The notes beneath the pieces are model-generated. The model saw only the letters and a list, made by a program, of their open reading frames with translations, searched no databases and was not told the origin of the DNA. From Hyphomicrobiales bacterium (GTDB lineage: Bacteria > Pseudomonadota > Alphaproteobacteria > Rhizobiales > Beijerinckiaceae), in NCBI GenBank assembly GCA_025356415.1, contig JANXTB010000252.1, positions 1 to 34,048 of the forward strand: 34,048 bases of DNA. Direction: 5' to 3'. How positions within the stretch are numbered: position 1 is the first letter of the stretch; each line of letters starts with the position of its first letter. The translations under genes were made by a program, and so were the position numbers. Below are positions 3,143-25,689 of the stretch, in pieces.

Positions 3143-4090
3143 TCAGAGCGATGCCGCGCCTGTGTCCCAGTAAGGACGGAATTGCCGGGCGACGACATCG
3201 TCGATGGAGGGCGCGCCGTTCAGCAGGCCGACATTGCGCGAAAAACCAATCAGGCCGTTGACGGCGTTGTCTGAAATTTGCGGTTGGTAAAAGGGCAGGT
3301 CGCGAGCGATCACGTTCTGGATCAGGCCGGCTTCGACGGGCGGAAAAACCTTCCTGCCGATTTCGCCTGCAAGATCGATATTTGTCCTGAGCGCGCCTTG
3401 CGCGGCGACGACAGCCCTGACGCCTGCGGCGATCAGTTCAGGATTTTCCTCAATGGCGCGGTCGCTGGTGGCGAGTACGGGGAGCGTGTAGTCGAAGGCG
3501 AATCTCGGGCCGAGCCCACGCCGCACATCCAGAATGATTTTCCCGACGCCGCGCTGCACCGCGTTCTCGGCCCCCATGGCGTTGGCCCAAAAGCCGTCGA
3601 TGAGGCCATCCTCCAGCGCCCGCGCGGCGGTCACGCCGAATGATGCGCCCGGCTCAAAGGCCGCCGGAATGCCGACGACCTTGACCTCATCCTTTTCCAA
3701 GTCGATGCCGGATTCGATCAGCAGCCGCTTGAAGGTGAGGTCGACGAAGGGCGCGGCGCCGATTGTCTTTCCCTTGATGGCGCTGATGTCGCCCGGCTCG
3801 ATTGCGAGATCCGCGCGCATCACGAGCATCCAGAACGTGCCCTGCGACAAGGCCATTAGAAGCTTGGCGCCGCGCCATTCCGGAAAGGCCGGGAGAAGCG
3901 CATGCGCCGGGCCGGCGACGAGATCGACGGTGCCGTCGCGCAACGCCTCGTAGGTCTTGTTGTTGGGAAAGATCAGCTTGTATTGCGCATCCACGCCTTC
4001 CGCGGCGAACAGGCCCAGCTCCACGGCCGCGATGGCGGGGAAGTAGGAATTGCTGACGAAGTCTGGAACGGCGATCCGGCCCTTGATCAT
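3143..4090 (-). CDS. PBP2-fold (NMT1/THI5-like) protein without signal peptide, paralogue A
   Basis: This 315-residue protein has the two-lobe periplasmic-binding fold of the NMT1/TauA group: SYFPAIAAVELGLFAAEGVD at the N-terminus, TYEALRDGTVDLVAGPAHALLP, and the hinge-lobe GKTIGAAP. The first residues, MIKGRIAVPDF, start directly on the first beta strand, so there is no Sec, Tat or lipoprotein signal. It should stay in the cytoplasm. It is the last gene of the minus operon, 24 bases after the amidohydrolase. A full-length relative of the same size lies at 18559. Cytosolic PBP2-fold proteins are known as enzymes (THI5 pyrimidine synthase, 4,5-dihydroxyphthalate decarboxylase). An enzymatic or ligand-sensing role is therefore as likely as transport. 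The exact function is unknown. Confidence 0.85.
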   Translation of the reverse strand: MIKGRIAVPDFVSNSYFPAIAAVELGLFAAEGVDAQYKLIFPNNKTYEALRDGTVDLVAGPAHALLPAFPEWRGAKLLMALSQGTFWMLVMRADLAIEPGDISAIKGKTIGAAPFVDLTFKRLLIESGIDLEKDEVKVVGIPAAFEPGASFGVTAARALEDGLIDGFWANAMGAENAVQRGVGKIILDVRRGLGPRFAFDYTLPVLATSDRAIEENPELIAAGVRAVVAAQGALRTNIDLAGEIGRKVFPPVEAGLIQNVIARDLPFYQPQISDNAVNGLIGFSRNVGLLNGAPSIDDVVARQFRPYWDTGAASL

Positions 4091-4114
4091 GTGGTCTCCG
4101 ATCCGTGTGTTCGT

Positions 4115-5374
4115 TCAGGCCGCCTTGGGGACATTGCCGAAGATGTCGCGCATCAGCCTGCAGGAGGGGACGATCACCTCGCCGCCCATGACGACGCGGT
4201 GGGGCGCCAGACGCAGGTTGACGACGAGCTCTTCGCCACGGCCGTCGAGCATCGTCCATTCACCTTCGATCTGGTCGAGAATGGTGATGTTCGCATCCAT
4301 GCCAGGCCGCAGCGAGCCGATGCGATCCTGCTGGCCGATGACCTTGGCGGGCGTGATCGTCGTCGCGGCGATGATGCGGTCGATCGGCATGCCCAGCGCG
4401 AGCAGCCGTGTCATTGCGCCACACAGGCTGTAATCGGTCTGCGAGTCGTCGTGATAGCCGTTGAAGTCGCCATGCGCGTCGCTGCTGATCGTGTCCGGAT
4501 AGAGCTCCGCCGCGATCATCTTGCGCGCGATGGGGTAACTGAAGTTCACGCCGTAGCCGATGTCGAACAGAAGACCGCGTTGGCGCGCCTGTCTGACGAC
4601 ATCCGGAATTCCGGGCTCGAGCCCGACAATGCCGTCGGGCATGGCGCTGTAGACATGGGCGAGCACGTCGCCCTCCTTGAGCAGGTGCAGGACGTTGGGC
4701 ACGACGTCAGTCGCCTCTGGCCGGCTCTCTTCGATCACGGGAAAGAGTTCGCCAGTGTGGACATAGAGCGGCAGCCCCGTGCGCTTGGCGATCTCCGAGG
4801 CGTATTCCAAAACCTGCGTGCCCCAATGCGACATGCTTCCGGATTCGGCATGGCATTTGAAGCCGCGAATATATTGCGGGTATTGGGCGGCAAGCGCCGC
4901 CAGCTCGTCGATGTCCACGAGATCGGGATTGTGCAGCCGCGGTCCTTCCATTCCACCCTTGATCGCGCCGAGCAGATTGATGGACGGGAAAGCGACCACG
5001 TCGGTTTTGGACGGCTTGATGACGTGAGCAATAAAGCCGCCAAACGTCCATGCGCCGGAACTGCCCTGATCGACGATGGTCGTGACGCCAGCATCGACGC
5101 CTGCGTCATCCGCGCGGACTCCGAAATTGGTCACCCATTCGTAGACGTGGACATGAAGGTCGATGAGCCCCGGCGTGACGATCTTTCCATCGGCGGACAG
5201 ACGCGTCTTGGCGGGCGTCCGGCCGAGGTCGGCAGCAAGGGCGGCGATTTTCCCGTCCCGGACGGCGACATCGAAACAGCCGTCAAGGCCTTGCGCCGGA
5301 TCGATCACGCGCGCGCCGCAGATGACGAGATCGAACGGGGCGTCGGTTTCGGAAGCAGGTGTTTGTGACGTCAT
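4115..5374 (-). CDS. Amidohydrolase/deacetylase-family metal-dependent hydrolase A
   Basis: The 419-residue protein is a dihydroorotase/deacetylase-like amidohydrolase expected to hydrolyse a C-N bond, often in a cyclic amide. All metal ligands of a binuclear site can be seen: HVH (H74, H76), the bridging carboxylated lysine K173 in RGFKCH, H206 in YVHTGE, H240 in VLAH, and the catalytic aspartate D299 in SSDAHGD. The N- and C-terminal parts form the usual small beta-sandwich (DLVICGARVIDP; GSLRPGMDANITILD). ATG 5374 was chosen because GAAGGA lies eight bases upstream and because the upstream in-frame codons show no homology and overlap the small gene. It lies in the operon with two UbiD decarboxylases and is paralogous to the gene at 20113. 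The substrate is not predictable. Confidence 0.9.
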   Translation of the reverse strand: MTSQTPASETDAPFDLVICGARVIDPAQGLDGCFDVAVRDGKIAALAADLGRTPAKTRLSADGKIVTPGLIDLHVHVYEWVTNFGVRADDAGVDAGVTTIVDQGSSGAWTFGGFIAHVIKPSKTDVVAFPSINLLGAIKGGMEGPRLHNPDLVDIDELAALAAQYPQYIRGFKCHAESGSMSHWGTQVLEYASEIAKRTGLPLYVHTGELFPVIEESRPEATDVVPNVLHLLKEGDVLAHVYSAMPDGIVGLEPGIPDVVRQARQRGLLFDIGYGVNFSYPIARKMIAAELYPDTISSDAHGDFNGYHDDSQTDYSLCGAMTRLLALGMPIDRIIAATTITPAKVIGQQDRIGSLRPGMDANITILDQIEGEWTMLDGRGEELVVNLRLAPHRVVMGGEVIVPSCRLMRDIFGNVPKAA

Positions 5375-5403: not shown

Positions 5404-5598
5404 TCAGTGCGGAATCCAATATCGTCCGAACTCGTCGCGCATGAGTTCGTGTTTCTCGCGCACCGCGCTCCACGCGATGAGCACGTCCCGGTAGGGCGCG
5501 TCCGTGCAGAGATCGAGCACGTCCTTGAAGAAGGCGGGATCGGCGAGCAGTGCTTCGATCTTGCCAACAAGCTCCTCGCGGGCGCCTGAGCGGGTCAT
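5404..5598 (-). CDS. 64-residue protein coupled to UbiD, possible small subunit
   Basis: A short frame of 64 residues starts at ATG 5598, overlapping the stop of the preceding UbiD gene by four bases (ATGA). It ends 29 bases before the amidohydrolase start. The product is mostly helical and acidic: EELVGKIEALLADPAFFKDVLDLC, then YRDVLIAWSAVREKHELMRDE. It has no signal peptide, membrane segment or cysteine cluster, so it does not resemble the zinc-ribbon D subunit of vanillate-type decarboxylases. I do not recognise a family. The translational coupling and the neighbouring UbiD pair suggest a small structural or regulatory subunit of that enzyme. This is inference from position only. Confidence 0.7.
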   Translation of the reverse strand: MTRSGAREELVGKIEALLADPAFFKDVLDLCTDAPYRDVLIAWSAVREKHELMRDEFGRYWIPH

Positions 5599-6953
5599 AG
5601 ATAATCCTCCAGGCGAAGACTGTCTGAATAAGCAGGGACGATGCGCTCGTAACGAAAGGCCGGAATGCCTTCGGGTATGGTGGCGTCGATGCCGAATTTC
5701 GATGTCAGAGGAAGCTCGCCGGGTTTCATGTCCCAGGGCCGCACGCTCGGGTCGACATGTTTGGCTTTCATGCCGGAGAGGATCACGATGTCCTTGTCGG
5801 CCTGGCAGCGGAAGGTGACCGCCCATTCCACTTCATTCGAGTCGTAAATGTTGATGTCGTCGTCGGTGATGATGACTTGTTTGACGACTGGCAATGACAG
5901 GATCGCGGCGATTGCGTTCTTGCCTTCTCCCGCGCGCTTGCGGATTGAAACCACCATGGACCAGCCGCAGCAGCCGCCCTCGGTCGCGCGTACGGCGACC
6001 ACCGGAATCCCCGCAAGCGACAGGATCCGCATGCACGCGGCTTCGGTTGCGGGCCCGTTCAGCCAGTCATTCTCCCAAGGCATCTGCAGCGCGAACAGGA
6101 TAGGGTTGCGCCGGTGCGTGATGGCGGTGAGGCGGAAAATCGGATTGTGTTTGAGATCGCCCTGCATGCCGGCGAATTCCCCGAAGGGGCCTTCATCGGC
6201 GGTCCATCCATTCGGCAGCAGCTCGCCTTCGAGGATCATCTCGGCGTCGGCCGGGACCATGAGATCGACTGTCTTGGCGCGAACGAGGCGCGTCGGGGCG
6301 CCCCGCAGGCCGCCTGCTATTTCTATTTCGTTGACGCCAGCCGGCGCCTTGTAGGCTGCGCCCATGTGTTCGAACGCATGGACACCGAAAGCGACGGCAA
6401 TTTGCAGCGGCTTTCCCTGCTCGTAGAACTTTGTGTAAATGCGGCGCAGGTCTGAGGCGGTGAACAGATCAATGCCCATCTCGCGGCGTGTGCGGAACAT
6501 CAGCCGGTAGCAGCCGACATTGACGCCGACATTTGGTTCGTTCGCGAACACGATTCCAGATGAGAGATAAGGGCCGCCATCCTTCTCGTGCATGAACGGG
6601 ATCGGGATGTTGCTGAGATCGACGTCGTCGCCGGTGAACACATGCTCCTGGCACGCAGCGTCTTCGACTTCGACTGGCGGTATCGGCTTTGCGACAGCGG
6701 ACGCGAAACGGCGGCCGAGCTCGCCTTCAGGCCAGCCGAGCGACGCCGCCGTGCGGGCGCGCGTCCAGAAAATGCCGCCGGCCATGGAGAAGTCGTAGCC
6801 TTCGACTTTCTCGGCGAGCAGCACGCCCGGCGCTTTCGTGCAAAGCGCGCTGAAATGCTGCGGCTTAACGGGCTTCTTCATGCGCGTCACATGCCCTTGC
6901 GCCTCCATGCGCGCGAGCATGGCCCGGAAGTCTTCAGTTGCAATGTCCGACAT
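5595..6953 (-). CDS. UbiD-family prenylated-FMN decarboxylase, copy 1
   Basis: The 452-residue protein belongs to the UbiD family of reversible (de)carboxylases that use prenylated FMN. Catalytic residues map clearly: arginine R150 in GCYRLMF (equivalent to Fdc1 R173) and the EGPFGE box with E254 and E259 (Fdc1 E277 and E282). The middle-domain metal/phosphate loop and the C-terminal GIDATIPEG segment are also typical. An ATG at 6953 is preferred over the TTG two codons upstream. The gap to the preceding UbiD gene is 21 bases, and the stop overlaps the 64-residue gene. Likely substrates are aromatic, heteroaromatic or alpha,beta-unsaturated carboxylic acids. UbiX, which makes the cofactor, is not in the window. 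A double cysteine (EGGCCGW) in the C-terminal half is a distinguishing feature. Confidence 0.93.
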   Translation of the reverse strand: MSDIATEDFRAMLARMEAQGHVTRMKKPVKPQHFSALCTKAPGVLLAEKVEGYDFSMAGGIFWTRARTAASLGWPEGELGRRFASAVAKPIPPVEVEDAACQEHVFTGDDVDLSNIPIPFMHEKDGGPYLSSGIVFANEPNVGVNVGCYRLMFRTRREMGIDLFTASDLRRIYTKFYEQGKPLQIAVAFGVHAFEHMGAAYKAPAGVNEIEIAGGLRGAPTRLVRAKTVDLMVPADAEMILEGELLPNGWTADEGPFGEFAGMQGDLKHNPIFRLTAITHRRNPILFALQMPWENDWLNGPATEAACMRILSLAGIPVVAVRATEGGCCGWSMVVSIRKRAGEGKNAIAAILSLPVVKQVIITDDDINIYDSNEVEWAVTFRCQADKDIVILSGMKAKHVDPSVRPWDMKPGELPLTSKFGIDATIPEGIPAFRYERIVPAYSDSLRLEDYL

Positions 6954-6974
6954 GATCAAGCTTGCCTTGTCCGA

Positions 6975-8399
6975 TTAAAGCGTCACGCCGGCGGCCCGCA
7001 GCAGGTCCCGCGCGCGGGCGCGATGTTCCTCGGGGATGACGAGCCGTTCCGCGAAATCGACGCCCATGGGGCGGGTGGCGTCGATGCCCATTTTCGTGAT
7101 CGTGAATGTCTTTGGATCGGACGTGGGATCGATGATTGCGCTCTTCACCCCGGGGATGAGCATGATGTCTTTCTCCGCGTGGACGCGCGTCGCGATCGCC
7201 CACATGACATCGTTCATGTCGAAGATGTCGACGTCCTCGTCCACGACGATCACATATTTAGTGTAGAGCTCGGTTCCGAGCGCGCTCATGACGGCCATTT
7301 GCGGTTCGCCCGGCGCGGTCTTCTTCATGGAGACGATGGCCATGAAGGCGCCGCAGGTGGTGTGCGGCACGTGCACGGCGATCACGTTGGGCAAGTTGCG
7401 CTTGAGCGCGTTGAGGATCTCGCCTTCGCGTGTGATGCAGGAGATGAGGATGTGATCCTTCGCCATCCCTGATACGACGCTGTGGAAGTAGGCGTCGCGA
7501 CGCATCCGCACGCGCTTGGCGATGAAAACATTCTGGGTGCTGCGGTGCGAGGCGTATCCGGTGAATTCGCCGAACGGACCCTCCGGCTCGCGCTCGCCCG
7601 CGAGGATCTCGCCTTCGATGATGATCTCGGCGCCTGCTGGAACCTGCAGGCCTTCATCTCCGCAAGCCGCCAGCCGGTAAGGCTCCTGAAACAGGCCGCC
7701 GATGATTTCAAACTTGCGAACGTTTGGCGCATACGCATAGGTCATCGATCCCATGTAATGGATCGGATGCACGCCGAGCGTGATGGCGACGGGCAAGTTT
7801 TGCCCGCGTTCTTCCGCGCGGCGATGATATTCAAACATGCGCCGCCGCGAATGCAGCGACACGCCGAGCTTATTCTTGCCCTTCAGCATCAGGCGGTGAA
7901 AACCCGTCGTATCGACTCCGGTGATTGGATCGCGCGCAGTGATCTGTCCCGCCGTGATGTAGGGCGCCGCATCGACCGAGAATTGCTTCGGGATAGGCAG
8001 AGCGGTGAGATCGATCTGGTCTCCTTCCAGAACGATTTCGTTCCAGGCGGCGTCCTTGACGAGTTCACAGGGAAGGGGGTTCTGGCAGCGTTCGCGAAAG
8101 GCGGTCGGCAGATCCTTGACGTTGGCACCGATGCAGGCGGCGAGAAGCTCCCGGTTCGCAGCCACATTCGTGATGACAGGCATTTTGAAGCCGCCGACAT
8201 TCTCGAAGATGACGACCGGACTTTTTCCCACGCGCTCAAGTTCGAAGATGATCGAGGTCGTGTCGAATTCGCGGGCGACAGGCTCCTTGATGCGCAGGAT
8301 CTCAGCCGGGAAATGACTTTCGACCATGGAAAGGAAGCCACGCAGAGACTGGTTGTCTTCGCCAACGGCAGCAGAGCCAATTGTCGTTGTCATCGTCAT
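6975..8399 (-). CDS. UbiD-family prenylated-FMN decarboxylase, copy 2
   Basis: The 474-residue protein is a second UbiD-type decarboxylase with the full E-R-E set: R169 in GFHRLMLKGKNK, and E273 and E278 in EGPFGE. The GKNK stretch after the arginine is closer to classical UbiD than the corresponding RTRRE of copy 1. The two copies are therefore distant paralogues rather than a recent duplication. Landmarks such as AAPYITAGQ, LGVHP and VDEDVDIFD follow family order, and length is normal. The start at ATG 8399 overlaps the hydrolase stop by four bases, while ATG 8393 two codons inside is the alternative. The two copies may form a heteromer or act on successive substrates. Confidence 0.93.
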   Translation of the reverse strand: MTMTTTIGSAAVGEDNQSLRGFLSMVESHFPAEILRIKEPVAREFDTTSIIFELERVGKSPVVIFENVGGFKMPVITNVAANRELLAACIGANVKDLPTAFRERCQNPLPCELVKDAAWNEIVLEGDQIDLTALPIPKQFSVDAAPYITAGQITARDPITGVDTTGFHRLMLKGKNKLGVSLHSRRRMFEYHRRAEERGQNLPVAITLGVHPIHYMGSMTYAYAPNVRKFEIIGGLFQEPYRLAACGDEGLQVPAGAEIIIEGEILAGEREPEGPFGEFTGYASHRSTQNVFIAKRVRMRRDAYFHSVVSGMAKDHILISCITREGEILNALKRNLPNVIAVHVPHTTCGAFMAIVSMKKTAPGEPQMAVMSALGTELYTKYVIVVDEDVDIFDMNDVMWAIATRVHAEKDIMLIPGVKSAIIDPTSDPKTFTITKMGIDATRPMGVDFAERLVIPEEHRARARDLLRAAGVTL

Positions 8400-9235
8400 C
8401 CGTGGACCTTTTTGCTGGATGGGCTCAGGAGAGCTTCCGCCATGCGCGGCAGGGCGCCGTCTGGCGATCGGAGATCGTTCAGGATCGTGAAATGATCTGC
8501 GCCGGCAATTGGGAGCAGCGCGCCGGGCGCATGAGCGGCGGCGCGCTTGGCGTGGAGCGCGCGGCTGTCGTCAACGAACGGCTGCAGTTCCCGGCTGCCG
8601 TAAGCAATGAGCATTTCCTTGTTCACGGCGGGCTGCCGCAACGGCGAAAGGTCCGCTATTTCCTGATCGGTCAGGGCCAGGCTTTCGCTGAGATACGTGT
8701 CACGCAATGGCCCCAGTTCGTAGATGCCGGAGATTGCCATGCCAGCGTGAACACGCGGATGATCGAGCGCATGAGCCGCGAGAAGCGCGCCGGCGGACCA
8801 GCCGGCAAGGATCACAGGTCCGGCAATGCCGTGCGAGGGTCCCTCGCTTGCGAGCCAGTCGAGAGCGGTGTGAATGTCCGCGCAGATCTCGGTCATTGTT
8901 GATTGGGGCGCCAGCGAGTAGCTCGGCAGGGCGACCGACCAGCCATTCGGGAGAAAGCCCTCCGTCACACACGCGAAGTCTTCGCGTCCGTTCATGACCC
9001 AGTAGCCGCCATGGATGAAGATGAGGCAGGGACTATTCGCACTTGCGCCCGGGTAGAGATCCCATTTGCAGCGCTCCTTGTCTGCGTAGGGCAAATCGAG
9101 TTTGGCGGCATGGGCTTCGCGAAAGCGCCAGGATGCGGTTTTCCTTTCCAGATTCAGCTTGGCGCTGTCGGCGACGCCCGCCTGATTGTTGTATGCGGCG
9201 TCCCGTTCGCCTCGCGTCATCATGCCCCAGTTCAT
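8396..9235 (-). CDS. Alpha/beta hydrolase, kynurenine-formamidase-like
   Basis: The 279-residue cytoplasmic protein has an oxyanion-hole motif HGGYW (residues 75-79), a nucleophile elbow GWSAG with S147, and a C-terminal histidine H248 in GADHF. The acid of the triad is probably E216 in SRELQPF. The HGGYW motif and overall length are those of the esterase/arylformamidase group that includes kynurenine formamidase, which cleaves N-formyl or ester bonds. The N-terminal YNNQAGV and NWDLYPG-like layout also fits that group. It is the first gene of the minus operon, with ATG 9235 and a GAGG ribosome site close upstream. In context it may remove an acyl or formyl group from a ring-opening product, which is inference. 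Confidence 0.88.
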   Translation of the reverse strand: MNWGMMTRGERDAAYNNQAGVADSAKLNLERKTASWRFREAHAAKLDLPYADKERCKWDLYPGASANSPCLIFIHGGYWVMNGREDFACVTEGFLPNGWSVALPSYSLAPQSTMTEICADIHTALDWLASEGPSHGIAGPVILAGWSAGALLAAHALDHPRVHAGMAISGIYELGPLRDTYLSESLALTDQEIADLSPLRQPAVNKEMLIAYGSRELQPFVDDSRALHAKRAAAHAPGALLPIAGADHFTILNDLRSPDGALPRMAEALLSPSSKKVHG

Positions 9236-9538: not shown

Positions 9539-10618
9539 ATGGTCGACATTACCCGCAGATCACTGACAATCGGCGCAATGGCCGCGCCTTTCGTGATCAC
9601 GAGCGCGTCGCGCGCGCAATCGCTGCGTCAGGTGACATTCACATTGCCTTGGCTTGCCGAAGGGTCGAACGCCTACACATTCGTCGCCAAGGCGAATGGC
9701 TATTGGTCGAAGCGTGGTCTTGATGTCCAGATCAGTCGCGGCTTTGGCTCGAACGCTTCCGCGCAGGCGGTCGGCGCAGGCCGCTTCCAGTTCGGCCTCG
9801 CCGCCGGCCCGTCCATCGTGCAGGCGGCCGCCAAGGGCCTGCCGCTCGTGACGCTTGCTTGCGCCGGTTACGACGCCACCATGGGCGTCTGCGTCCTGAA
9901 GGACAGCCCGATCAAGTCGCCGAAGGATCTCGAGGGTCGCAAGATGGCCTCGACGGTGAGCTCCGGCGATTATCCATTCCTCGGCGTGTTTGCGAAACGC
10001 GCGGGCTTCGACATTTCGAAAGTGAACCGCCTGCAGACGGATCCGAACGTTCGTCAGCGCCTGCTCGTCAGCAAGGAAGTCGATGCGATCTCCGGCTTCG
10101 CCAGCACGTTCGCGCCGATCTTCGCCGCGGAGAAGGTCGAGGTCCGCAACATGCTCTACAGCGATGTAGGGCTCACGCTTTACAACAATTCCCTGATCAC
10201 CCAGCAGGCGACACTCGAAAAAGAACCGCAGCTTTGCGCCGACATCACGGACGGGTTGCTGGAGGCGCTGAAATTCTCGCTGCTCAGTCCTGAAGAGTCG
10301 GTTCAGCTTTTCCTGAAGCAGGTTCCGGAAACGGCCCTTTCGGCGACCGGGCCGCAGAGCACGCGCATCGGCGTGAACCTGGCGAACCTGTCGATGCTCC
10401 GCAAGCAGGCCAAGGATAATTACCTCGGTTACATGGCGCCGGACGATTTCGCGACCATGACGGACCTCGTGATGGAACATATCGCCGAGCCGGGCGACAA
10501 ACGCCCTGACCAGAAAACGCTCTTCACCAACTCGCTTCTGGGCAAGACCAAGGTCACCGCAGCCGAGTGGGACGGCGCCCTCAAAGGCGCCGAAGAATAT
10601 CGCAAGTATATTTCCTGA
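9539..10618 (+). CDS. Tat-exported NMT1/TauA-like substrate-binding protein 1
   Basis: The 359-residue protein starts with a twin-arginine signal: R6-R7 in TRRSLTIGA, a hydrophobic stretch, and a probable cleavage after SRA at about residue 26. The mature part is a NitT/TauT-family PBP2 fold: FTLPWLAEGSNAYTFVAKANG, GLDVQISRGFGS, AAGPSIVQAAAKGLP and DSPIKSPKDLEGRKMAS. It should bind a small anionic or heterocyclic solute in the periplasm and deliver it to the permeases encoded next. AGGAG lies eight bases before ATG 9539. It is a paralogue of the protein at 12252 (both share the ISRGFGS motif). Use of Tat instead of Sec suggests folding before export. The ligand is unknown. Confidence 0.92.
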   Translation: MVDITRRSLTIGAMAAPFVITSASRAQSLRQVTFTLPWLAEGSNAYTFVAKANGYWSKRGLDVQISRGFGSNASAQAVGAGRFQFGLAAGPSIVQAAAKGLPLVTLACAGYDATMGVCVLKDSPIKSPKDLEGRKMASTVSSGDYPFLGVFAKRAGFDISKVNRLQTDPNVRQRLLVSKEVDAISGFASTFAPIFAAEKVEVRNMLYSDVGLTLYNNSLITQQATLEKEPQLCADITDGLLEALKFSLLSPEESVQLFLKQVPETALSATGPQSTRIGVNLANLSMLRKQAKDNYLGYMAPDDFATMTDLVMEHIAEPGDKRPDQKTLFTNSLLGKTKVTAAEWDGALKGAEEYRKYIS

Positions 10619-10632
10619 CGGAGGGAAGTCGC

Positions 10633-12203: not shown

Positions 12204-12251
12204 TCGCGGCCGATTTTGAAATCATTTCAGATTCAACCAGGAGAATTTAGC

Positions 12252-18475: not shown

Positions 18476-18558
18476 TGCGACGGATCTCCGCTTCGACCCA
18501 AACCCCAAGCAAGCATCGGGCCGCATTGCGCGCCATCTGCGCACAAAGCCCGTTGCTC

Positions 18559-19506
18559 ATGAAAGGTCACCCCTTGAAGCTCGCCGTTCCCGATTTGATC
18601 ACCAACTCCTACTTTCCCGCTGTCGCCGCGGTGGAACTCGGCTTCTTCAAGCGCGAGGGGCTCGATGTCGAAATCGAGCTCATCGCCCCGGCAGGCCGCA
18701 CCTATGAGGCCCTGCGCGACGGCGTGGCCGATTTCGTCGTGGCGGAATCCCACGCGGGCCTCGCTGCATTCGACGAGTGGCAGGGAATGAAGCTGCTCTG
18801 CGCCCTGTCGCAAGGCATGTACTGGTTTCTGGTGCTGCGCGCGGATATCGCAGGCGAACGGGGCGATCTTAGCGTGCTGCGTGGCCGGCGGATCGCCGCG
18901 GCGCCATGGGTCGAAATGGGTCTGCGCCGTCTCCTGATGGAAGCGGGGATGGACCCCGAACGGGACGACATTCGTATCGCGCCGCTGGAGGGCTCTCTCG
19001 GGCCCAAGGTCAACATAGGCGTCACGGTCGCGCGCGCCTTGGCGGAAGGGCGGGTCGATGGTTTCTGGGCGAATGGCATGGGGGCCGAACTCGCGGTCCG
19101 CAGCGGCGCCGGCAAGATCGTTCTCGACGTTCGCCGGGGCGATGGGCCCAAGAAGGCGTTTGATTATACCCAGCCGACACTGGCGACGACCGACAGGTTG
19201 ATCGAGCGTCAACCCGAGGTCGCCGCGGCTGCAGCGCGGGCCATAGCGCGTACGCTCGCCGCGCTGAGAGCGGACCCCTCGCTTGCGACGCAAGCCGCGC
19301 GCTCGGTATTCCCCGCAGAAGAGGTGCAGCTGATCGCAGAACTCGTCATTCGTGATTTGCCTTTCTACGACCCGATGCTACATCCGCAATCCATTGAGGG
19401 CATGAACCAGTTCCTGCGCGATCTCGGCGTGCTGAAGGGCTTTCCGAGCTACGAGGATGTGGTCGCGACAAAACTCTTTCCGCTCTGGGCTGACGCCCAT
19501 GAGTGA
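18559..19506 (+). CDS. PBP2-fold (NMT1/THI5-like) protein without signal peptide, paralogue B
   Basis: The 315-residue protein is the same length as paralogue A at 3143 and matches it along its length. Examples are NSYFPAVAAVELGFFKREGL, TYEALRDGVADFVV, GFWANGMGAE (A: GFWANAMGAE), KIVLDVRRG (A: KIILDVRRG) and AFDYTQP (A: AFDYTLP). The chain begins MKGHPLKLAVPDL on the first beta strand, so there is no export signal. In-frame codons upstream to 18475 were rejected because they overlap the divergent regulator start and carry no signal either. The gene overlaps the Rieske gene by eight bases. A soluble cytoplasmic enzyme or sensor role is inferred; periplasmic transport is unlikely. Confidence 0.87.
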   Translation: MKGHPLKLAVPDLITNSYFPAVAAVELGFFKREGLDVEIELIAPAGRTYEALRDGVADFVVAESHAGLAAFDEWQGMKLLCALSQGMYWFLVLRADIAGERGDLSVLRGRRIAAAPWVEMGLRRLLMEAGMDPERDDIRIAPLEGSLGPKVNIGVTVARALAEGRVDGFWANGMGAELAVRSGAGKIVLDVRRGDGPKKAFDYTQPTLATTDRLIERQPEVAAAAARAIARTLAALRADPSLATQAARSVFPAEEVQLIAELVIRDLPFYDPMLHPQSIEGMNQFLRDLGVLKGFPSYEDVVATKLFPLWADAHE

Positions 19507-19873
19507 CGACGCACCGCGCTGGATCGAGGTCGCTGCGCTGGACAACGTCAAGCCGGGCGGGCTCATACAGGTGATCGTGAAGGGCACGCAGATCGTGGTG
19601 GCGCGCGCCGTGTCCGGTCTCCACGCCTTCCAGGCGATCTGCCCGCACGAAATGGCCAATCTCTCCACCGGTCGGCTCGAGGCCGCTCACGTGGTGTGTC
19701 CACGGCATCTGGCGAAGTTCGACATAGCCACCGGCGCGGTCTCTCCCGGCTGGTCGATCAACGGCTTGCGCATCTACCCCGTTCGCGCCGTCGACGGGCG
19801 CATCGAGATCGATGAAGCCGCCGTCGAGCGCGCGCCGCCTTTCCGAAAGAAAACCACGTGGGACCTGACCTGA
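19499..19873 (+). CDS. Rieske 2Fe-2S ferredoxin
   Basis: The 124-residue protein has the Rieske cluster pattern C48-x-H50 (CPHEM) and C67-x2-H70 (CPRHL), with 16 residues between the two halves as in biphenyl/naphthalene dioxygenase ferredoxins and NirD. No transmembrane anchor or signal is present, so it is a soluble electron carrier. ATG 19499 overlaps the stop of the PBP2-like gene by eight bases, hence the two are co-translated. No Rieske oxygenase or ferredoxin reductase is encoded in the window. It could feed an oxygenase elsewhere, serve the Mo hydroxylases, or act with the PBP2-like protein; the sequence does not decide. Confidence 0.92.
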   Translation: MSDDAPRWIEVAALDNVKPGGLIQVIVKGTQIVVARAVSGLHAFQAICPHEMANLSTGRLEAAHVVCPRHLAKFDIATGAVSPGWSINGLRIYPVRAVDGRIEIDEAAVERAPPFRKKTTWDLT

Positions 19874-20112: not shown

Positions 20113-21384
20113 ATGTCCATGGACAACGTCAGCTTCGACACCATCCTGCATGGAGGCTTGGTGCTGGATCCCGCGACGGGCCGGAACGGAATGTTCGACA
20201 TCGGCGTGACCGGCGGGCGCGTGGCCGCCATTGAATCCGATCTCTCGAAAGCGCAGGCGTCTGAAAAAATAGATGTGTCCGGCAAGCTCGTGACAGCCGG
20301 AATGATCGATACGCACGCGCATATTTATCAGCACGTCACCGGAAAATTCGGCCTCGAACCCGACCTCGTTGGCGTCCGCTCCGCGGTAACGACGCTCGTC
20401 GATCAGGGTGGCCCGAGCTGCATGACGATCGGCGGCTTCAAGAACTTCCTCGCGAAGAAATCAGACTCGCGGATGCTTTGCTACATGTCGTGCTATCTCG
20501 TGGGCGGACTTGAAGGGCACCTTTATCCCGAACTCCATTCTCCCAGCGCGATGAATATCGATCACAGCGTGCGCGTGGCGCGCGAGAACCGCGCCATGGT
20601 GCGCGGCATCAAAGGGCACGCCGAGATCGGCGGCGCCTCGCGCTGGGGGCTGGAAGTGCTGAAAATGGCGAAGGAGATCGCGCGACAGGCCGAGCTTCCA
20701 TTGTACATTCATCTGGGTCAGATGTGGCCGTCGGTGGAAGAAGGCGATGTGCCGAGCGCTGACGAACTCATCCGCGCGCTCGTGCCGCTCATGGATCCGG
20801 GCGACGTGCTCTCGCATCCCTTCACGCGTCATCCCGGTGGTTTCGTCTCGATGGACACGGGCGAAGTTCATCCGATCGTCTTCGAGGCGCTTGCCCGCGG
20901 CGTACTTGTCGATGTCGGACATGGCTCGCACTTCAGCTTTGAAATGGCCAAGCGCGTGCTCGACGCGGGTGTCCGGCCGTTCACGCTCGGCGCCGACTTG
21001 CACGGCTATAATGTTTCGGTTCCCGGCGAAGGCCTGAGCGATGCAGATCGAAGTGCGAGTCCCTTCGCTGGCTCCGCGCCTTTCAATCTGACTGTCGCGA
21101 TGTCGGAGCTTCTCGCACTTGGCTTGACGCTCGACGAAACGGTCGCGACTGTTACGTCCAATCCCGCCAAGTTGCTCAAGATGGAAGATGAGATCGGCAG
21201 CTTGCAGGTCGGCCGTGTCGCCGACATCAGCGTCGTCGAAATCCTGAATGGCCGATTCAAACTTTCCGATAACAGTGGCGTCGATGTCGTTACCGACAAG
21301 CTCGTCTTCCCGCGCTTCTGCTTGCGCGAAGGCCGCAAGATTGAGGCCGACTCCCCGCTGATCCCGCCTCCGTTCTACGCCTGA
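20113..21384 (+). CDS. Amidohydrolase/deacetylase-family metal-dependent hydrolase B
   Basis: The 423-residue protein is a paralogue of the amidohydrolase at 4115 and has the complete metal site: H68 and H70 in DTHAHIY, bridging lysine K167 in RGIKGHAEIGG, H200 in YIHLGQ, H235 in VLSHPF and D295 in GADLHGY. The beta-sandwich ends are DTILHGGLVLDP and GSLQVGRVADISVVE. It should hydrolyse an amide, probably cyclic. AGGA eight bases before ATG 20113 fixes the start; in-frame codons upstream run through the promoter and were rejected. It is followed after 29 bases by the second Mo-hydroxylase large subunit, so hydroxylation and amide hydrolysis are probably consecutive steps. Confidence 0.92.
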   Translation: MSMDNVSFDTILHGGLVLDPATGRNGMFDIGVTGGRVAAIESDLSKAQASEKIDVSGKLVTAGMIDTHAHIYQHVTGKFGLEPDLVGVRSAVTTLVDQGGPSCMTIGGFKNFLAKKSDSRMLCYMSCYLVGGLEGHLYPELHSPSAMNIDHSVRVARENRAMVRGIKGHAEIGGASRWGLEVLKMAKEIARQAELPLYIHLGQMWPSVEEGDVPSADELIRALVPLMDPGDVLSHPFTRHPGGFVSMDTGEVHPIVFEALARGVLVDVGHGSHFSFEMAKRVLDAGVRPFTLGADLHGYNVSVPGEGLSDADRSASPFAGSAPFNLTVAMSELLALGLTLDETVATVTSNPAKLLKMEDEIGSLQVGRVADISVVEILNGRFKLSDNSGVDVVTDKLVFPRFCLREGRKIEADSPLIPPPFYA

Positions 21385-21413: not shown

Positions 21414-23756
21414 ATGCATGACGGGAACGTCAGACGAGGCGTTGGAGCTTCCATGCTCCGGCTCGAAGACGATCGTCTGCTGCGCGGAAAAGCCCGCTTC
21501 GTCGCAGACATCAAGATGCCCGGCATGCTGGAAGTCGCCTTCGTTCGCAGCCCTGTCGCACATGCGCGCGTGCGCGGCGTCGGCAAACCTGCGGGGCACG
21601 AAGACAAGGTCATCGTCAGCGCCGACCTGAAAGGCGTCTCCGGCATCCGTGCGGATTCCGGGCTGACGGGTTTCAAGAGTTCGATCGAGCCGATCCTCGC
21701 CTTCGACAAGGTGCGCTTCGTCGGCGAGCCGCTGGCGGCCTGTCTCGCCCAGACGCGCGCCGAGGCCGAGGACATTGCCGAACTGGTCGGCCTCGACCTC
21801 GATACGCTGCCCGCCATTTCCGAGATGACGAAGGCCTGCGATACGGATGCGCCGCTCATCCATGAGTCATGGAGCGAGAACGTCTTTCTCGAAACGCTGG
21901 TCGATACGAATTTCGCGGCTGCGGACAAGGCGGATGTTCGAATCTCCCGGACGTTGCGAACGGCGCGGCAATCCATGGCGCCGATTGAAGGGCGCGGCGT
22001 CGTCGCTTATTGGGACGCGCATGTCGAGCAGCTCGTGGTCTATTCCTCCACGCAAATGCCGCACATCGTGCGCAATGGGCTGGCCGAATGTCTCGGCATT
22101 CCGCAAGGCATGATCCGTGTCATTCCGCCTGATGTCGGCGGCGGCTTTGGCTACAAGGGCGTCCTGCTTCGCGAAGAAGTTTGTCTCGCTTATCTGGCGA
22201 TGCAGCTGCGCCGCCCGATGCGTTGGGTCGAGGACAGACGCGAGCAGTTGACCGGCAACGCCAATTGCCGCGAACACCATTACGAAATCACCGGCTACGC
22301 CAATCGCGACGGAACGCTCGTCGGCATCGATTGCGATGCGATCGTCGATTCCGGCGCGTATTCGCTTTATCCGTTTTCCGCGTGCCTTGAGGCGGCGCAG
22401 GTCGCGAGCATTCTTCCCGGGCCTTACAAACTCGAAGCTTATCGCTGCAGGACGCGGTCGATCGCCTCCAACAAGCCGCCCATCCTCCCGTTTCGCGGCG
22501 TGGCGCGGACCGGCGTCTGCTTTGCAATCGAAATCATGATGGATGCGCTCGCGCGCGAAATCGGCATGGACCCGGTCGCATTTCGTCTGAAAAATCTCGT
22601 GCAGCCCACGGAAATGCCATTCACCAACATCACGAACAAGTATTTCGACAGCGGCGATTATCCCGAGGCGTTAGGGCGCGCGGCGGCGGCGGTGGATATG
22701 CAATCCCTGCAGGCGCGGAGGCAACTTTCGACGCCGAACAAGAAAATCGGAATAGGCTTCGCGATCTATTGCGAGCAGGGCGCGCACGGCACCTCGGTCT
22801 ATCATGGCTGGGGCATCCCGATGGTGCCCGGGTTCGAGCAGGCCAATGCGCGGTTCACGCCGGATGGCGGCCTCGAATTGCGCGTCGGCGTGCAGAGCCA
22901 CGGGCAGGGGCTGGAGACGACTCTCGCGCAAGTCGCCTGCGAGATTCTGGGTATCGATGCCCGCAAGGTGAAACTTGTTCACGGCGACACGGCCCTGACG
23001 CCGTATTCCACGGGCACCTGGGGATCGCGATGCATGGTGATGGCGGGCGGCGCCGTCGCCGCGGCTTGCGATACGCTGGCGGGGCGCATGAAATCCATCG
23101 CCGCGCATCTCCTTCAGACCGATCCGTCCGAGATTATTCTGGCCGATGACAAGGCGTCATCAGGGTCTCGCGAAATCAGCATCGCCGAGATCGCAAAGGT
23201 CTGGTATCGGCGCCCGCAGGACCTGCCCGCCAACATGGATCCCGCCGGTCTTGAGGTCACGCAGGGCTACAAGCCGAAAAAGGACACGGGCACATTTTCG
23301 TATGGCGCTCACGCTGCTGTGGTTGAAGTTGATACGAAGACCGGCGCTGTTGAAATCCTCGATTACATCATCGTTGAAGACGGCGGCGTGCTGATCAATC
23401 CCATGGTGGTGGATGGCCAGATTTATGGCGGCGCCGCGCAGGGAATTGGAACCGCGCTCTACGAAGAGATGCCCTATGACGTGGACGGGCAGCCGCTCGC
23501 CTCGACGCCCGCGGACTATCGCATTCCCGGATCGGTCGAAGTGCCGCGCATCAGGCTCGATCATATGGAAACGCCGTCGCCGCTGACGCGCTTCGGTCAA
23601 AAGGGACTCGGCGAAGGCGGCGCCATTGCTCCGCCCGCGGCAATCGCCAATGCGGTGAATGATGCGCTCGCCGAATACGCGGTCGAGATGCTGGAGCTGC
23701 CCATCACGCCAACGCGCATTCGCGAAAGTCTCTCCCGCGCGAGAGCATCCTCATGA
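21414..23756 (+). CDS. Molybdenum hydroxylase large subunit 2 (molybdopterin-binding)
   Basis: The 780-residue catalytic subunit has an N-terminal domain with LRLEDDRLLRGKARFVADI, typical of CoxL/aldehyde oxidase large chains. It also has the VGGGFGYKG loop, the PFRGVAR loop, the Q-loop SHGQGLETTLAQ and the catalytic glutamate E734 in QKGLGEGGAIAPP. No AYXCSFR loop is present, so it is not a CO dehydrogenase. GAGGAG lies before ATG 21414. The stop overlaps the FAD-subunit gene by four bases. Subunit order large-FAD-2Fe2S differs from the first enzyme (FAD-2Fe2S-large), and the sequence is only distantly related. The two complexes therefore probably arose separately and act on different substrates. 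Confidence 0.94.
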   Translation: MHDGNVRRGVGASMLRLEDDRLLRGKARFVADIKMPGMLEVAFVRSPVAHARVRGVGKPAGHEDKVIVSADLKGVSGIRADSGLTGFKSSIEPILAFDKVRFVGEPLAACLAQTRAEAEDIAELVGLDLDTLPAISEMTKACDTDAPLIHESWSENVFLETLVDTNFAAADKADVRISRTLRTARQSMAPIEGRGVVAYWDAHVEQLVVYSSTQMPHIVRNGLAECLGIPQGMIRVIPPDVGGGFGYKGVLLREEVCLAYLAMQLRRPMRWVEDRREQLTGNANCREHHYEITGYANRDGTLVGIDCDAIVDSGAYSLYPFSACLEAAQVASILPGPYKLEAYRCRTRSIASNKPPILPFRGVARTGVCFAIEIMMDALAREIGMDPVAFRLKNLVQPTEMPFTNITNKYFDSGDYPEALGRAAAAVDMQSLQARRQLSTPNKKIGIGFAIYCEQGAHGTSVYHGWGIPMVPGFEQANARFTPDGGLELRVGVQSHGQGLETTLAQVACEILGIDARKVKLVHGDTALTPYSTGTWGSRCMVMAGGAVAAACDTLAGRMKSIAAHLLQTDPSEIILADDKASSGSREISIAEIAKVWYRRPQDLPANMDPAGLEVTQGYKPKKDTGTFSYGAHAAVVEVDTKTGAVEILDYIIVEDGGVLINPMVVDGQIYGGAAQGIGTALYEEMPYDVDGQPLASTPADYRIPGSVEVPRIRLDHMETPSPLTRFGQKGLGEGGAIAPPAAIANAVNDALAEYAVEMLELPITPTRIRESLSRARASS

Positions 23757-24565
23757 AGCCCGCGCCATTCGCCTATCAAGCCGTACCGAGCGCGAAGGAT
23801 GCGCGCGCGTATCTTGCATCGCCGGACGCGAAAGCGATTGCGGGCGGGCAGTCTCTGGGACCGATGCTCAACCTGCGGCTGGCAAGGCCCGCCTTGCTTG
23901 TCGACATCGCGCGCACGCGAGATCTGCGCGGCGTGCTTGAGGACGGCGACGTTGTCACTTACGGCGCCGCGGTGACCCATGCCGATATCGAGGACGGGCG
24001 CGTTCCGGATGCGACTCCCGGATGGCTGCGAAATGCCGCGCGTCACATCGCATATCGCGCCGTGCGCAACCGTGGGACGATCGGCGGCAGTCTTGCTCAT
24101 GCCGACCCGGCGGCGGACTGGGTCAACATCATGACAGCGCTCGGCGCCATGGTGCTGATCTCGGGTCCGCATGGCGATCGTTCCATTTCCATGGAGCAAT
24201 TCATCCTTGGACCCTACGCCACAGCGCTCGCAGCCGGCGAACTGATCTCGGGCGTTCGCGTGCTGCGCCGGAGCGCGAAGGCGCAATGGGGTTATGCGAA
24301 GTTCTGCCGGAAAGAGGGCGACTTCGCACAGGCGAGCGCCGCCGTCCTGATCGATCCTGAGCGGGGCGAGCAGAGAATTGTGCTCGGCGCCATCGAGCGC
24401 GCGCCCGCGTGCATCCCGGATCCCGAAGCATTCCTGAGCGGCAGGCTGAGCGCGGATGACGTGGTCGCGCAGATTCTGCCGGAGCGCGATGAAGCTTCGC
24501 GCGCCCTGCATGCGGCGATGCTGGAGCAAGCGCACGCCATGGCTTTCGGAGGCGCAGTCAAGTGA
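23753..24565 (+). CDS. Molybdenum hydroxylase FAD-binding subunit 2 (CoxM-like)
   Basis: The 270-residue subunit has both canonical FAD motifs, AIAGGQSLGPMLNLRLA near residue 30 and NRGTIGGSLAHADPAADW near residue 110. The N-terminus MKPAPFAYQAVPSAKDA is typical of the family, as are YAKFCRKEGDFAQASAA and the C-terminal domain. Unlike subunit 1 it has no unusual motif changes. The start overlaps the large-subunit stop (ATGA), and the stop overlaps the next gene's GTG start. It should carry electrons from the 2Fe-2S clusters to a quinone or other acceptor. Confidence 0.94.
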   Translation: MKPAPFAYQAVPSAKDARAYLASPDAKAIAGGQSLGPMLNLRLARPALLVDIARTRDLRGVLEDGDVVTYGAAVTHADIEDGRVPDATPGWLRNAARHIAYRAVRNRGTIGGSLAHADPAADWVNIMTALGAMVLISGPHGDRSISMEQFILGPYATALAAGELISGVRVLRRSAKAQWGYAKFCRKEGDFAQASAAVLIDPERGEQRIVLGAIERAPACIPDPEAFLSGRLSADDVVAQILPERDEASRALHAAMLEQAHAMAFGGAVK

Positions 24566-25689
24566 CACAATCGACCACACTCACGGTGAACGGCGCTCGT
24601 GTTTCGGAGACGATAGAACCCCGCACGCACCTGGCCGATTTCCTTCGCGAAAAGTTGAACCTGACGGCGACGCACATTGGTTGCGAGCACGGCGTCTGCG
24701 GAGCCTGCACGATCCTCGTCGATGGACAGCCTGTTCGATCCTGCCTGACCTACGCGGTTTCCTGCGAAGGCGCGGAAGTCGTGACCATTGAAGGGCTCGA
24801 ACACGATCCCCTGATGGCGAAGCTGCGGGAGGCTTTCAGCCGCCATCACGGTTTGCAATGCGGTTATTGCACGCCCGGCATGCTCGCCACCGCCTACGAT
24901 CTGGCAACGCGCATACCGGATGCCGATGAAGCGCGCGTTCGTCTTGAGCTCGCTGGCAATCTCTGCAGGTGCACAGGCTATGCCGGCATCGTCGCCGCGA
25001 TACTCGATGTTCTGGCGCAAGGCCCGCATGTATCCGCTTTCACGTCGCAGTGGCGCGAATGCGCGGAGCCTGGCGCCCTGGCGCCCGTTCTCTCACACGG
25101 CGCGACCACGACCGTCCAAAGCGCGCCTGCGCTGCTCCCTTCGTCCGACAGCGTGGATCTGACCGGCGGGACGAAAATCACCCGGTCTGTCACGATTCAT
25201 GCGGATGCCGATCTTGTCTGGAAGATTCTCTCGGACCCATGGCAGGTTGCGAAATGTTTCCCGGGCGCAGCCGTGTCGCAGGTTTCGGGTAACCGAGTGG
25301 ACGGCGCGCTGACAGTCTCTGCGGGACCGATCCGGACGTCTTTCGCAGGCCGCGCCGAAGTTCTCTACGACGCCGCCACCCGGACAGGTGAAATTCGCGG
25401 GATCGGAGACGATCGCGGCGGGCGCTCGCGCGCGCAAGGCATGATGGTCTTCGCGGTCGCGCCGGCAGCAGAGGGCGCGAGCCAGCTGACGGTGGACATC
25501 ACCTACAAGCTGACCGGCCCTCTGGCCCAATTCGGAAGGCCGGCCATCATATCGGCGATCACGAGCGGGCTCCTTGCGGAGTTTGCGCGTAACGTCGCGA
25601 TCCTGGCGGCAGGCAAAGAAAAGCTGAAGACCAGCCTGATGCGTCAGGTGTGGTATACGCTGACAGCGTTCCTTCAACCTCGTCGCTGA
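24562..25689 (+). CDS. 2Fe-2S subunit 2 fused to CoxG-like SRPBCC domain
   Basis: This 375-residue protein is a fusion. Residues 1-155 form a complete CoxS-type subunit with C41, C46, C49, C61 and C100, C103, C135, C137. After a linker of about 30 residues rich in A, S and T, residues 186-340 form a CoxG-like SRPBCC domain: VTIHADADLVWKILSDPWQV, CFPGA, VDGALTVSAGPI, FAGRAEV, then YKLTGPLAQFGRPAII. In the CO dehydrogenase operon CoxG is a separate protein thought to help recruit the enzyme to the membrane. The start is GTG 24562, overlapping the preceding TGA by four bases (GTGA). It is the last gene of the operon. Confidence 0.93.
   Translation: MTQSTTLTVNGARVSETIEPRTHLADFLREKLNLTATHIGCEHGVCGACTILVDGQPVRSCLTYAVSCEGAEVVTIEGLEHDPLMAKLREAFSRHHGLQCGYCTPGMLATAYDLATRIPDADEARVRLELAGNLCRCTGYAGIVAAILDVLAQGPHVSAFTSQWRECAEPGALAPVLSHGATTTVQSAPALLPSSDSVDLTGGTKITRSVTIHADADLVWKILSDPWQVAKCFPGAAVSQVSGNRVDGALTVSAGPIRTSFAGRAEVLYDAATRTGEIRGIGDDRGGRSRAQGMMVFAVAPAAEGASQLTVDITYKLTGPLAQFGRPAIISAITSGLLAEFARNVAILAAGKEKLKTSLMRQVWYTLTAFLQPRR

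Follow-up and report, generated by a model that had tools for sequence, protein, structure and literature searches.

The stretch of DNA analysed here (the window) covers positions 1 to 34,048 of contig JANXTB010000252.1 from a Hyphomicrobiales bacterium. Between positions 3143 and 25689 it carries a block of 21 genes, referred to below as the island, which is kept together in related genomes and may encode the catabolism of a nitrogen heterocycle. Genes and gene starts were called by codon-usage scoring trained on the window, and the products were assigned with Pfam and NCBIfam scans. The leftward arm consists, in order, of ABhyd, UbiDa, UbiDb, smallC, AHyA and SBP3. The rightward arm begins with SBP1, the ATPase, permease 1, SBP2, permease 2 and the three subunits (M, S, L) of molybdenum (Mo) hydroxylase 1; past an opposing GntR/FCD gene it continues with SBP4, a Rieske ferredoxin, AHyB and Mo hydroxylase 2 (L, M, S-CoxG). 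SBP denotes a substrate-binding protein or a protein of that fold, ABC the ATP-binding cassette type of transporter and prFMN prenylated FMN. The individual features are:

3143..4090, minus strand: SBP3, NMT1/THI5-like protein without signal peptide, downstream of AHyA (Pfam NMT1, 33.5 bits; 51% identical to SBP4)
4115..5374, minus strand: AHyA, cog3964-type amidohydrolase (Pfam Amidohydro_1/3; nearest PDB entry 2ogj, 165 bits)
5404..5598, minus strand: smallC, predicted winged-helix partner of UbiDb, 64 amino acids (position behind UbiDb, fused relatives, model)
5595..6959, minus strand: UbiDb, prFMN-type decarboxylase, start at 6953 or 6959 (Pfam; nearest PDB entry 6h6v)
6975..8399, minus strand: UbiDa, prFMN-type decarboxylase (Pfam; nearest PDB entry 6h6x)
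8396..9235, minus strand: ABhyd, alpha/beta hydrolase, esterase/formamidase-like (Pfam, NCBIfam and PDB matches)
9539..10618, plus strand: SBP1, NMT1-type binding protein with twin-arginine-like leader (Pfam)
10633..11421, plus strand: ABC transporter ATPase (Pfam; start from codon-usage call)
11418..12203, plus strand: ABC transporter permease 1 (Pfam)
12252..13340, plus strand: SBP2, second NMT1-type binding protein with twin-arginine-like leader (Pfam, codon-usage call)
13406..14155, plus strand: ABC transporter permease 2 (Pfam, codon-usage call)
14225..15025, plus strand: Mo hydroxylase 1, FAD subunit (M1) (Pfam, codon-usage call)
15022..15504, plus strand: Mo hydroxylase 1, [2Fe-2S] subunit (S1) (Pfam)
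15501..17798, plus strand: MoL1, molybdopterin subunit of Mo hydroxylase 1 (Pfam; nearest PDB entry 4-hydroxybenzoyl-CoA reductase alpha)
17768..18475, minus strand: GntR/FCD transcriptional regulator (Pfam, codon-usage call)
18559..19506, plus strand: SBP4, NMT1/THI5-fold protein without signal peptide (Pfam, predicted model)
19499..19873, plus strand: Rieske [2Fe-2S] ferredoxin (Pfam/NCBIfam)
20113..21384, plus strand: AHyB, cog3964-type amidohydrolase of the core pair (Pfam/NCBIfam; alignment to 2ogj)
21453..23756, plus strand: MoL2, molybdopterin subunit of Mo hydroxylase 2 (Pfam; nearest PDB entry quinoline 2-oxidoreductase)
23753..24565, plus strand: Mo hydroxylase 2, FAD subunit (M2) (Pfam)
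24562..25689, plus strand: Mo hydroxylase 2, [2Fe-2S] subunit fused to a CoxG domain (S2) (Fer2_2, 89.1 bits; COXG, 49.5 bits)

A previous interpretation made from the nucleotide sequence (the sequence-only reading) had listed an importer, two Mo hydroxylases, an amidohydrolase pair, a UbiD pair and a formamidase-like hydrolase within the same borders, and both list and borders proved accurate in the Pfam and NCBIfam scans. The regulator, the Rieske ferredoxin, SBP3, SBP4, the CoxG fusion and smallC are additions to that list. An open reading frame of 252 amino acids at 17804-18562 on the plus strand, antisense to the GntR gene, is probably no gene and was discarded. In the loci of other genomes (designated L, with genomes designated G) codon-usage calling was less complete for L029, L034, L036 and L039, which gave few genes, and the gene rows obtained there are accordingly incomplete.

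Both Mo hydroxylases are complete, with FAD, double [2Fe-2S] and MoCoBD subunits (Pfam) at 14225-17798 and 21453-25689. This subunit set and the C-terminal catalytic Glu region identify them as members of the xanthine oxidase family; the motif GQKGLGEGG of MoL2 aligns to the Glu region of QorL, the large subunit of quinoline 2-oxidoreductase (Qor), and GLKGIGEAG of MoL1 to that of the alpha subunit of 4-hydroxybenzoyl-CoA reductase (HBCR). The same two proteins are the nearest PDB entries, with 468.7-477 bits for MoL2 against QorL and 264 bits for MoL1 against HBCR. Xanthine dehydrogenase scored lower (138 bits for MoL2; at most 175 bits for MoL1 against xanthine dehydrogenase/oxidase) and was rejected as the identity of either protein. 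Carbon monoxide dehydrogenase was rejected for MoL2, which reads ILPFRGVART where CoxL (8uem) has the Cys-bearing VAYACSFR; for MoL2, the earlier statement that the island does not match CO oxidation clusters is thereby borne out. Mo hydroxylase 2 thus shares the subunit set and a CoxG domain with the aerobic CO dehydrogenase CoxMSL and differs from it in the missing active-site Cys loop and in the fusion of CoxG to the FeS subunit. The same fusion and the pairing with a cog3964-type amidohydrolase set it apart from Qor, despite the similarity of MoL2 to QorL. A single S2 gene of fused length is annotated in Pacificitalea, Methylobacterium, Sinorhizobium and Geminicoccaceae, and the FeS subunit and CoxG are two genes in Azospirillum, Paraburkholderia and Caballeronia. 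CoxG is reported to connect CO dehydrogenase with the quinone pool (PMC13240472, citing Kropp 2025), and by analogy Mo hydroxylase 2 probably passes its electrons to that pool through the fused CoxG domain. A related MoL2-M2-S2 set on pSymA of Sinorhizobium meliloti (L078) lies between genes for an ArgE/DapE-type deacylase and a transhydrogenase on one side and a diaminopropionate ammonia-lyase gene on the other, with no AHyB in the stretch examined.

AHyA and AHyB have as their best NCBIfam match the amidohydrolase/deacetylase family PRK09237, with 358.3 and 369.5 bits, respectively, both below the cut-off of 371. We take them to belong to the group named cog3964. Both resemble 2ogj and display the metal ligands HxH, Lys, His, His and Asp, in the motifs HAH, GIKGH, YIHLG, LSHPF and ADLHG of AHyB (aligned to 2ogj) and HVH, GFKCH, YVHTG, LAHVY and SDAHG of AHyA (aligned with AHyB). 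The third hydrolase, ABhyd, had been described as formamidase-like; an alpha/beta hydrolase is indeed present at 8396-9235, but the label is a loose one, as a lipase (159 bits) and an esterase (81 bits) score higher than kynurenine formamidase (42.6 bits).

Each of UbiDa and UbiDb possesses the N, Rift and C domains (Pfam) and the R-E-E residues (R169/E273/E278 in UbiDa; R150/E254/E259 in UbiDb), by which both are predicted to be UbiD-type prFMN decarboxylases. Their nearest PDB entries are 6h6v and 6h6x, which we take to be HmfF. UbiDa has H316 and R324 at the places of H296 and R304 of the HmfF-type structure, and UbiDb has D296 and E304 there. The H296/R304 pair is presumably of functional importance in HmfF. 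Neither residue is named in the text of PMC7976604. The Asp and Glu of UbiDb belong to a near-invariant stretch, QMPWENDWL..TEA. In the genome to which the window belongs (G000) the UbiD family is matched 11 times. Six further UbiD loci (L003-L008) were examined there, and in two of them (L004 and L008) Mo hydroxylase subunits adjoin UbiD, so that this pairing recurs in G000.

The small gene smallC appears to be specifically associated with UbiDb. Of 35 UbiDb-type calls (at least 40% identity to UbiDb), 30 have a smallC-family gene immediately behind them, against none of 14 UbiDa-type calls, two of which are pieces of one gene. The five UbiDb-type calls without a called smallC are L043, at a contig end; L013, where smallC is uncalled and was detected by tblastn; L052, split, with smallC behind its last piece; and L046_09 and L045, which are longer proteins. 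A smallC profile applied to 385 genomes of the same class matched at E<=1e-20 only the four genomes with UbiDb, at bases adjoining UbiDb, and one extra weak match (8.6e-6) fell inside a UbiD frame of 549 amino acids. In a small set of frames, five longer UbiD proteins (41-43% identical to UbiDb) end in a smallC-like domain with E values of 3.8e-7 to 3.2e-4; these are L164, L165, L166 and L167, together with L011, and measure 533-549 amino acids, or 864 in L011. No Pfam family matches smallC. Its AlphaFold2 model (predicted local distance difference test, pLDDT, 90.5) is a winged helix of H-E-H-H-E-E topology, and the top Foldseek matches are mostly winged helices (best E 0.04; TM-score to the query up to 0.76). 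One of these matches is DsrD, which has an enzyme activator role. In our view smallC is more likely to serve UbiDb as an accessory subunit or domain than to act as a regulator. In VdcBCD-type UbiD systems a small Cys-rich third subunit, VdcD, stands beside VdcBC; the presence of a small partner is common to both systems, but smallC is predicted to be a winged helix, and no cysteine is conserved in it.

The importer genes (9539-14155) encode NMT1 substrate-binding proteins, an ABC ATPase and two permeases (Pfam). Twin-arginine-like leaders were recognised by eye in SBP1 and SBP2. By the same inspection SBP3 and SBP4 begin at the first strand of the fold and have no leader, as does the copy in Skermanella. 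The SBP4 model (pLDDT 87.2) matches transport SBPs as well as Thi5 and DszB and, at rank 50, 4,5-dihydroxyphthalate decarboxylase; in view of these three matches an enzymatic role of the SBP3/SBP4-type proteins is possible. A PDB profile search with SBP3 and SBP4 returned a single weak match, and the best 15 of 20 plasmid records matching SBP4 are just 26-27% identical.

The inheritance of the block was followed in 61 genomes, namely its own, 36 of the same genus and 24 of the same order. UbiDb (at least 76% identity), AHyB (at least 75%) and MoL1 (at least 69%) occur in the same three of the 37 same-genus genomes (G000, G005 and G010), and none of the 24 same-order relatives holds orthologues of these three at the cut-offs used. 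One more UbiD match, of 43%, comes from G015 and represents a paralogue that is extended at its C-terminus. In G005 the genes of the island follow the same order, interrupted by a contig break within SBP2, and their proteins are about 50-86% identical; only AHyA-SBP3 has moved, to the other end of the block. The flanking genes of the window (DUF2254, DUF892, LivM and LivH) found no match in the G005 stretches searched; the block therefore stays together in a different setting. G010 has its pieces on three short contigs, so that gene order can be read only within them. The recurrence of orthologous blocks makes a chance grouping implausible, and within the genus the block is supported as one co-inherited unit. 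The source assembly resembles a metagenome-assembled genome (429 contigs, 93% complete), and such an origin could invite the suspicion that the window is an assembly or binning chimera; the same gene order in the separate genome G005 led us to reject this explanation, whose probability is negligible.

Most of the island is also present, on two contigs, in a cultured strain, Skermanella stibiiresistens SB22. The first contig carries SBP4, MoL1-MoS1-MoM1, an SDR gene, a gene of 111 amino acids, permease 2, SBP2, AHyB, an alpha/beta hydrolase of a second type, permease 1, the ATPase and SBP1, with MoL2-MoM2-MoS2 and a MarR gene divergent from the SBP1-side genes. The other contig carries GntR, SBP1, ABhyd, UbiDa, UbiDb and smallC. 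The location of both Mo hydroxylases in one locus argues that they serve one pathway.

In the wider class sample, AHyB (E<=1e-115) was found in 18 of the 385 genomes and 12 of 277 genera, three of these 18 genomes being those behind L116, L117 and L118. MoL2 (at least 60%) lies within about 10 kb of AHyB in 16 of the 18, the present genome included; G380 and G458 are without it. UbiDb (at least 50%) occurs in four class genomes, all with AHyB: the present one and three of one genus. A fifth match, of 41% in G186, represents a paralogue, and that genome has no AHyB at the same E value. AHyB and MoL2 thus form a widespread core, which UbiD joins in a subset. Mo hydroxylase 1 has a narrow distribution beyond the genus and Skermanella. 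Conserved neighbourhoods holding all modules had been proposed as a check on the sequence-only reading: one unit was found within the genus and most of it recurs in Skermanella, so that the scattered blocks which would have spoken against that reading are not observed there, whereas more distant bacteria mostly have the core without the UbiD pair. Several genes accompany the core elsewhere. In L116-L119 AHyB-MoL2 lies next to a gene of one and the same cluster, whose L117 member is a fusion of a pyridine-nucleotide oxidoreductase and AIR-synthase-related domains; in L147, L148, L080 and L128 the pair is accompanied by a gene of the phytanoyl-CoA dioxygenase family; and in L148 a phosphoribosyltransferase-domain gene adjoins MoL2.

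ABhyd opens the UbiD operon in the window, in G005 and in Skermanella, and sits between AHyB and MoL2 in Methylobacterium and Geminicoccaceae. Among the best 15 of 261 plasmid records, four exceed 45% identity to ABhyd, and in each of them AHyB, ABhyd and MoL2 stand one after another, an order inspected directly in two regions and deduced from coordinates in the other two. ABhyd (at least 54%) was found in three of the 385 class genomes, all with AHyB; one match of 43% (G440) is in a genome without AHyB. An ABhyd copy near a core operon (G443:C1:4221799-4222608) contains one in-frame stop, and a second copy elsewhere in that genome is open.

The alpha/beta hydrolases beside AHyB are of two types, and many other loci have AllG-type proteins there. 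Of 34 loci examined, 33 have AHyB (L044 does not); 16 of these show the AllG type, seven an alpha/beta type and none both (one-sided Fisher p=0.0046, a value that overstates independence because several loci are close kin: L147/L149/L150, from two genomes of one genus and more; L116/L117/L118, from one genus; L152/L154/L156, from one genus; and L077/L127, from Azospirillum). The cut-offs were our own choice (28% for AllG-like proteins, 35% for AllG, 45% for ABhyd and 40% for the second alpha/beta type, with half of the query covered), and the stretches extended about 10 kb to each side for most loci, some being cut by contig ends. The alpha/beta gene of L153 is cut at the stretch end; counting it gives eight against 16, still with none having both. 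The window and G005, left out of the count, would add two alpha/beta loci. It is from this mutual exclusion that we infer that the alpha/beta hydrolase does by hydrolysis what the AllG-like proteins do by carbamoyl transfer. Further neighbours are of similar kind. L031, which unites AHyB, MoL2, an AllG-like gene, UbiDa, UbiDb and smallC in one locus, also contains AllG, a CoA-ligase-fold gene (of the FdrA/AllF kind in our naming), an amino-acid-kinase-fold gene and AllH. L117 and L118 unite AHyB, MoL2, an AllG-like gene, UbiDa and a PF00383 deaminase. Plasmids of two Azospirillum and one Caballeronia strain have AllG-like, HpxZ and amidase genes near MoL2, joined in Azospirillum by a gamma-glutamyltransferase-type gene. 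Genes of isochorismatase type neighbour UbiDb in two loci from Rokubacteria and AHyB in the genome of one alphaproteobacterium. The AllG, HpxZ, amidase and isochorismatase-type families comprise enzymes of ureides and amides, and such neighbours suggest a ring from which carbamoyl or amide nitrogen is set free.

These neighbours also bear on the possibility that the substrate is an oxygen heterocycle, a furan or lactone, with UbiDa acting as an HmfF-like decarboxylase of furan dicarboxylates, a Mo hydroxylase oxidising the furan and the amidohydrolases opening lactones. The kinship of both UbiDs with 6h6v/6h6x and the conserved His/Arg pair of UbiDa agree with this proposal, and members of cog3964 can hydrolyse esters. 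The Hmf/furoate route likewise has a ring-oxidising Mo hydroxylase, and it needs a furoyl-CoA ligase and a hydratase as well. Neither these families nor an enoyl-CoA hydratase were found by Pfam among the island genes, which have amidohydrolases instead; UbiDb is devoid of the HmfF-type pair, and the AllG-type, HpxZ, amidase and isochorismatase neighbours handle amides or ureides. The earlier denial of a match to a furoate cluster consequently stands, even with UbiDs closest to HmfF, and we regard an oxygen heterocycle as quite improbable.

The interpretation that we favour, with somewhat better than even confidence, is that 3143-25689 encodes a single catabolic pathway for a carboxylated N-heterocycle, most likely a lactam or a cyclic ureide; our confidence in any particular ring is lower. 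The NMT1-type ABC system, with binding proteins that are apparently exported by the twin-arginine route, would import the compound. Both Mo hydroxylases would then add oxygen at ring carbons adjoining nitrogen, and AHyA and AHyB would open the resulting lactam or ureide ring. ABhyd would strip the exposed carbamoyl, formyl or other acyl group, a task that may fall to AllG-type carbamoyltransferase proteins in relatives. Finally, UbiDa and UbiDb, the latter with its winged-helix partner, would take off ring carboxyl groups using prFMN. Hydroxylation, lactam or imide hydrolysis, deacylation and decarboxylation had already been suggested by the sequence-only reading. An N-heterocycle that forms a ureide or amide is now favoured by neighbours in related loci (AllG-type, HpxZ, amidase, isochorismatase and deaminase genes), but the ring chemistry, meaning every reaction, the order of the steps and the substrate class, is still what we infer.

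A number of observations weigh against such a pathway. No gene for the final C2-C4 products was recognised and no UbiX is present in the island, although two PF02441 genes elsewhere in the genome could supply prFMN. The two SB22 loci have no AHyA, SBP3 or Rieske gene, and only one such amidohydrolase passes E 1e-60 in the SB22 genome. No M2-type FAD subunit was found in 11 of 26 MoL2 loci, including L031 and L116-L119; some of the 11 stretches are cut short by the contig, though those of L154 and L118 are not. Neither hydrolase type is seen in 10 of the 33 AHyB loci (nine once L153 is counted), and in L077, one of the AllG loci of the count, a gene some 8 kb from AHyB is annotated as an alpha/beta hydrolase but fits neither of the two types. 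AllG itself has no match in the present genome (93% complete), E. coli being the only one of 14 controls to match. With respect to the UbiD pair, 14 of the 18 AHyB class genomes are without UbiDb, two of them also without MoL2, and UbiD may hence serve a neighbouring route. Conversely, in 22 genomes chosen from 63 UbiDb-type loci and not all of the same class, AHyB was found in 11 at E<=1e-115 (compared with the 18 of 385 in the class sample) and in 15 at 1e-60, and MoL1 passes 1e-150 in only four, reaching 60% identity only in Skermanella and 40-41% in the others.

Part of this evidence would be expected if two unrelated pathways stood side by side, a decarboxylation by ABhyd-UbiDa-UbiDb-smallC-AHyA and an oxidation by MoL2-AHyB, collected in one genus. 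The 12 genomes with AHyB and MoL2 and without UbiDb fit this explanation, as do the many loci where UbiDb and smallC stand without the AHyB-MoL2 core, often with no Mo hydroxylase gene in the stretch examined, and the separation of the two halves on different contigs in Skermanella. It accounts poorly for ABhyd, found in the UbiD operon here and in the AHyB-MoL2 operon of Methylobacterium and Geminicoccaceae, for the union of AHyB, MoL2 and UbiDa in L031, L117 and L118 and for the identical presence pattern within the genus, and we consider it unlikely. From the distribution of UbiDb and AHyB, UbiD would seem to feed into the AHyB-MoL2 core or to add a step to it. The core without UbiD, UbiDb-smallC on its own and the rarity of MoL1 together suggest that the island is a local assembly of sub-modules.

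As a special case of the single N-heterocycle pathway, the substrate could be a fused pyrimidine of the purine, pterin or flavin type. The amidohydrolase would open the ring, the ureido group would be lost, UbiD would decarboxylate the resulting amino-heteroaryl acid, and a deaminase and the Mo hydroxylases would finish the degradation. Decarboxylation of aminoimidazole carboxylate is a step of classic xanthine fermentation and offers a precedent. The AllG, AllH, FdrA/AllF-like and amino-acid-kinase-fold genes beside the L031 block and the PF00383 deaminase directly behind UbiDa in L117 and L118 also agree with this route, but that deaminase was seen in just two genomes of one genus, the island contains no purine gene and neither Mo hydroxylase is nearest to xanthine dehydrogenase, so that this special case, too, is an unlikely one. 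The more detailed version, in which cog3964-type enzymes open a fused-pyrimidine or cyclic-ureide ring, carbamoyl is lost by hydrolysis or through an energy-conserving AllG-type transferase, a two-part prFMN UbiD (UbiDb with its winged-helix subunit) decarboxylates the amino-heteroaryl acid and two cytosolic THI5-fold proteins add lyase steps, is doubtful to a similar degree.

The same logic is encountered in lumichrome catabolism. According to PMC12746152, the lum cluster of Nocardioides simplex degrades lumichrome (from riboflavin) by a pathway that starts with a P450 and employs the thiamine pyrophosphate-dependent LumK/LumL and a Rieske dioxygenase, and it shares with the scheme proposed here a hydrolytic opening of the pyrimidine, the loss of a urea-derived group, the decarboxylation of a heteroaryl acid and a hydroxylation of xanthine oxidase type. 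The LumK/LumL-type decarboxylase pair, the P450 and the Rieske dioxygenase were not found in the island, where only a lone Rieske ferredoxin occurs. The allantoin and oxalurate enzymes AllFGH and HpxZ are a second point of comparison through the AllG-like and HpxZ genes adjoining AHyB-MoL2 in relatives; the difference from the oxamate carbamoyltransferase AllFGH lies in the absence of AllG here.

To the right of the island the window contains, at 26832-28079 on the minus strand, a gene of 415 amino acids whose N-terminus appears Hsp70/actin-fold-like by eye, followed by an NMT1-type gene (28208-29254), a gene with a weak SsuA-type match (29492-30421) and a branched-chain-type ABC transporter (30537-33868).

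In the open-licence PMC literature, no described cluster for a heterocycle route of this kind was found, nor was a prFMN UbiD found described in a ureide-type heterocycle pathway. If the proposed pathway is correct, genes would be named for such a heterocycle-degradation route, and this in a cultured strain in which it is testable. The UbiD family, which is of interest for reversible (de)carboxylation, would gain a two-part form with a winged-helix subunit that is fused in some relatives, and plasmid annotations reading 'amidohydrolase/deacetylase' could be understood as a cyclic-amide hydrolase partnered with a Mo hydroxylase.

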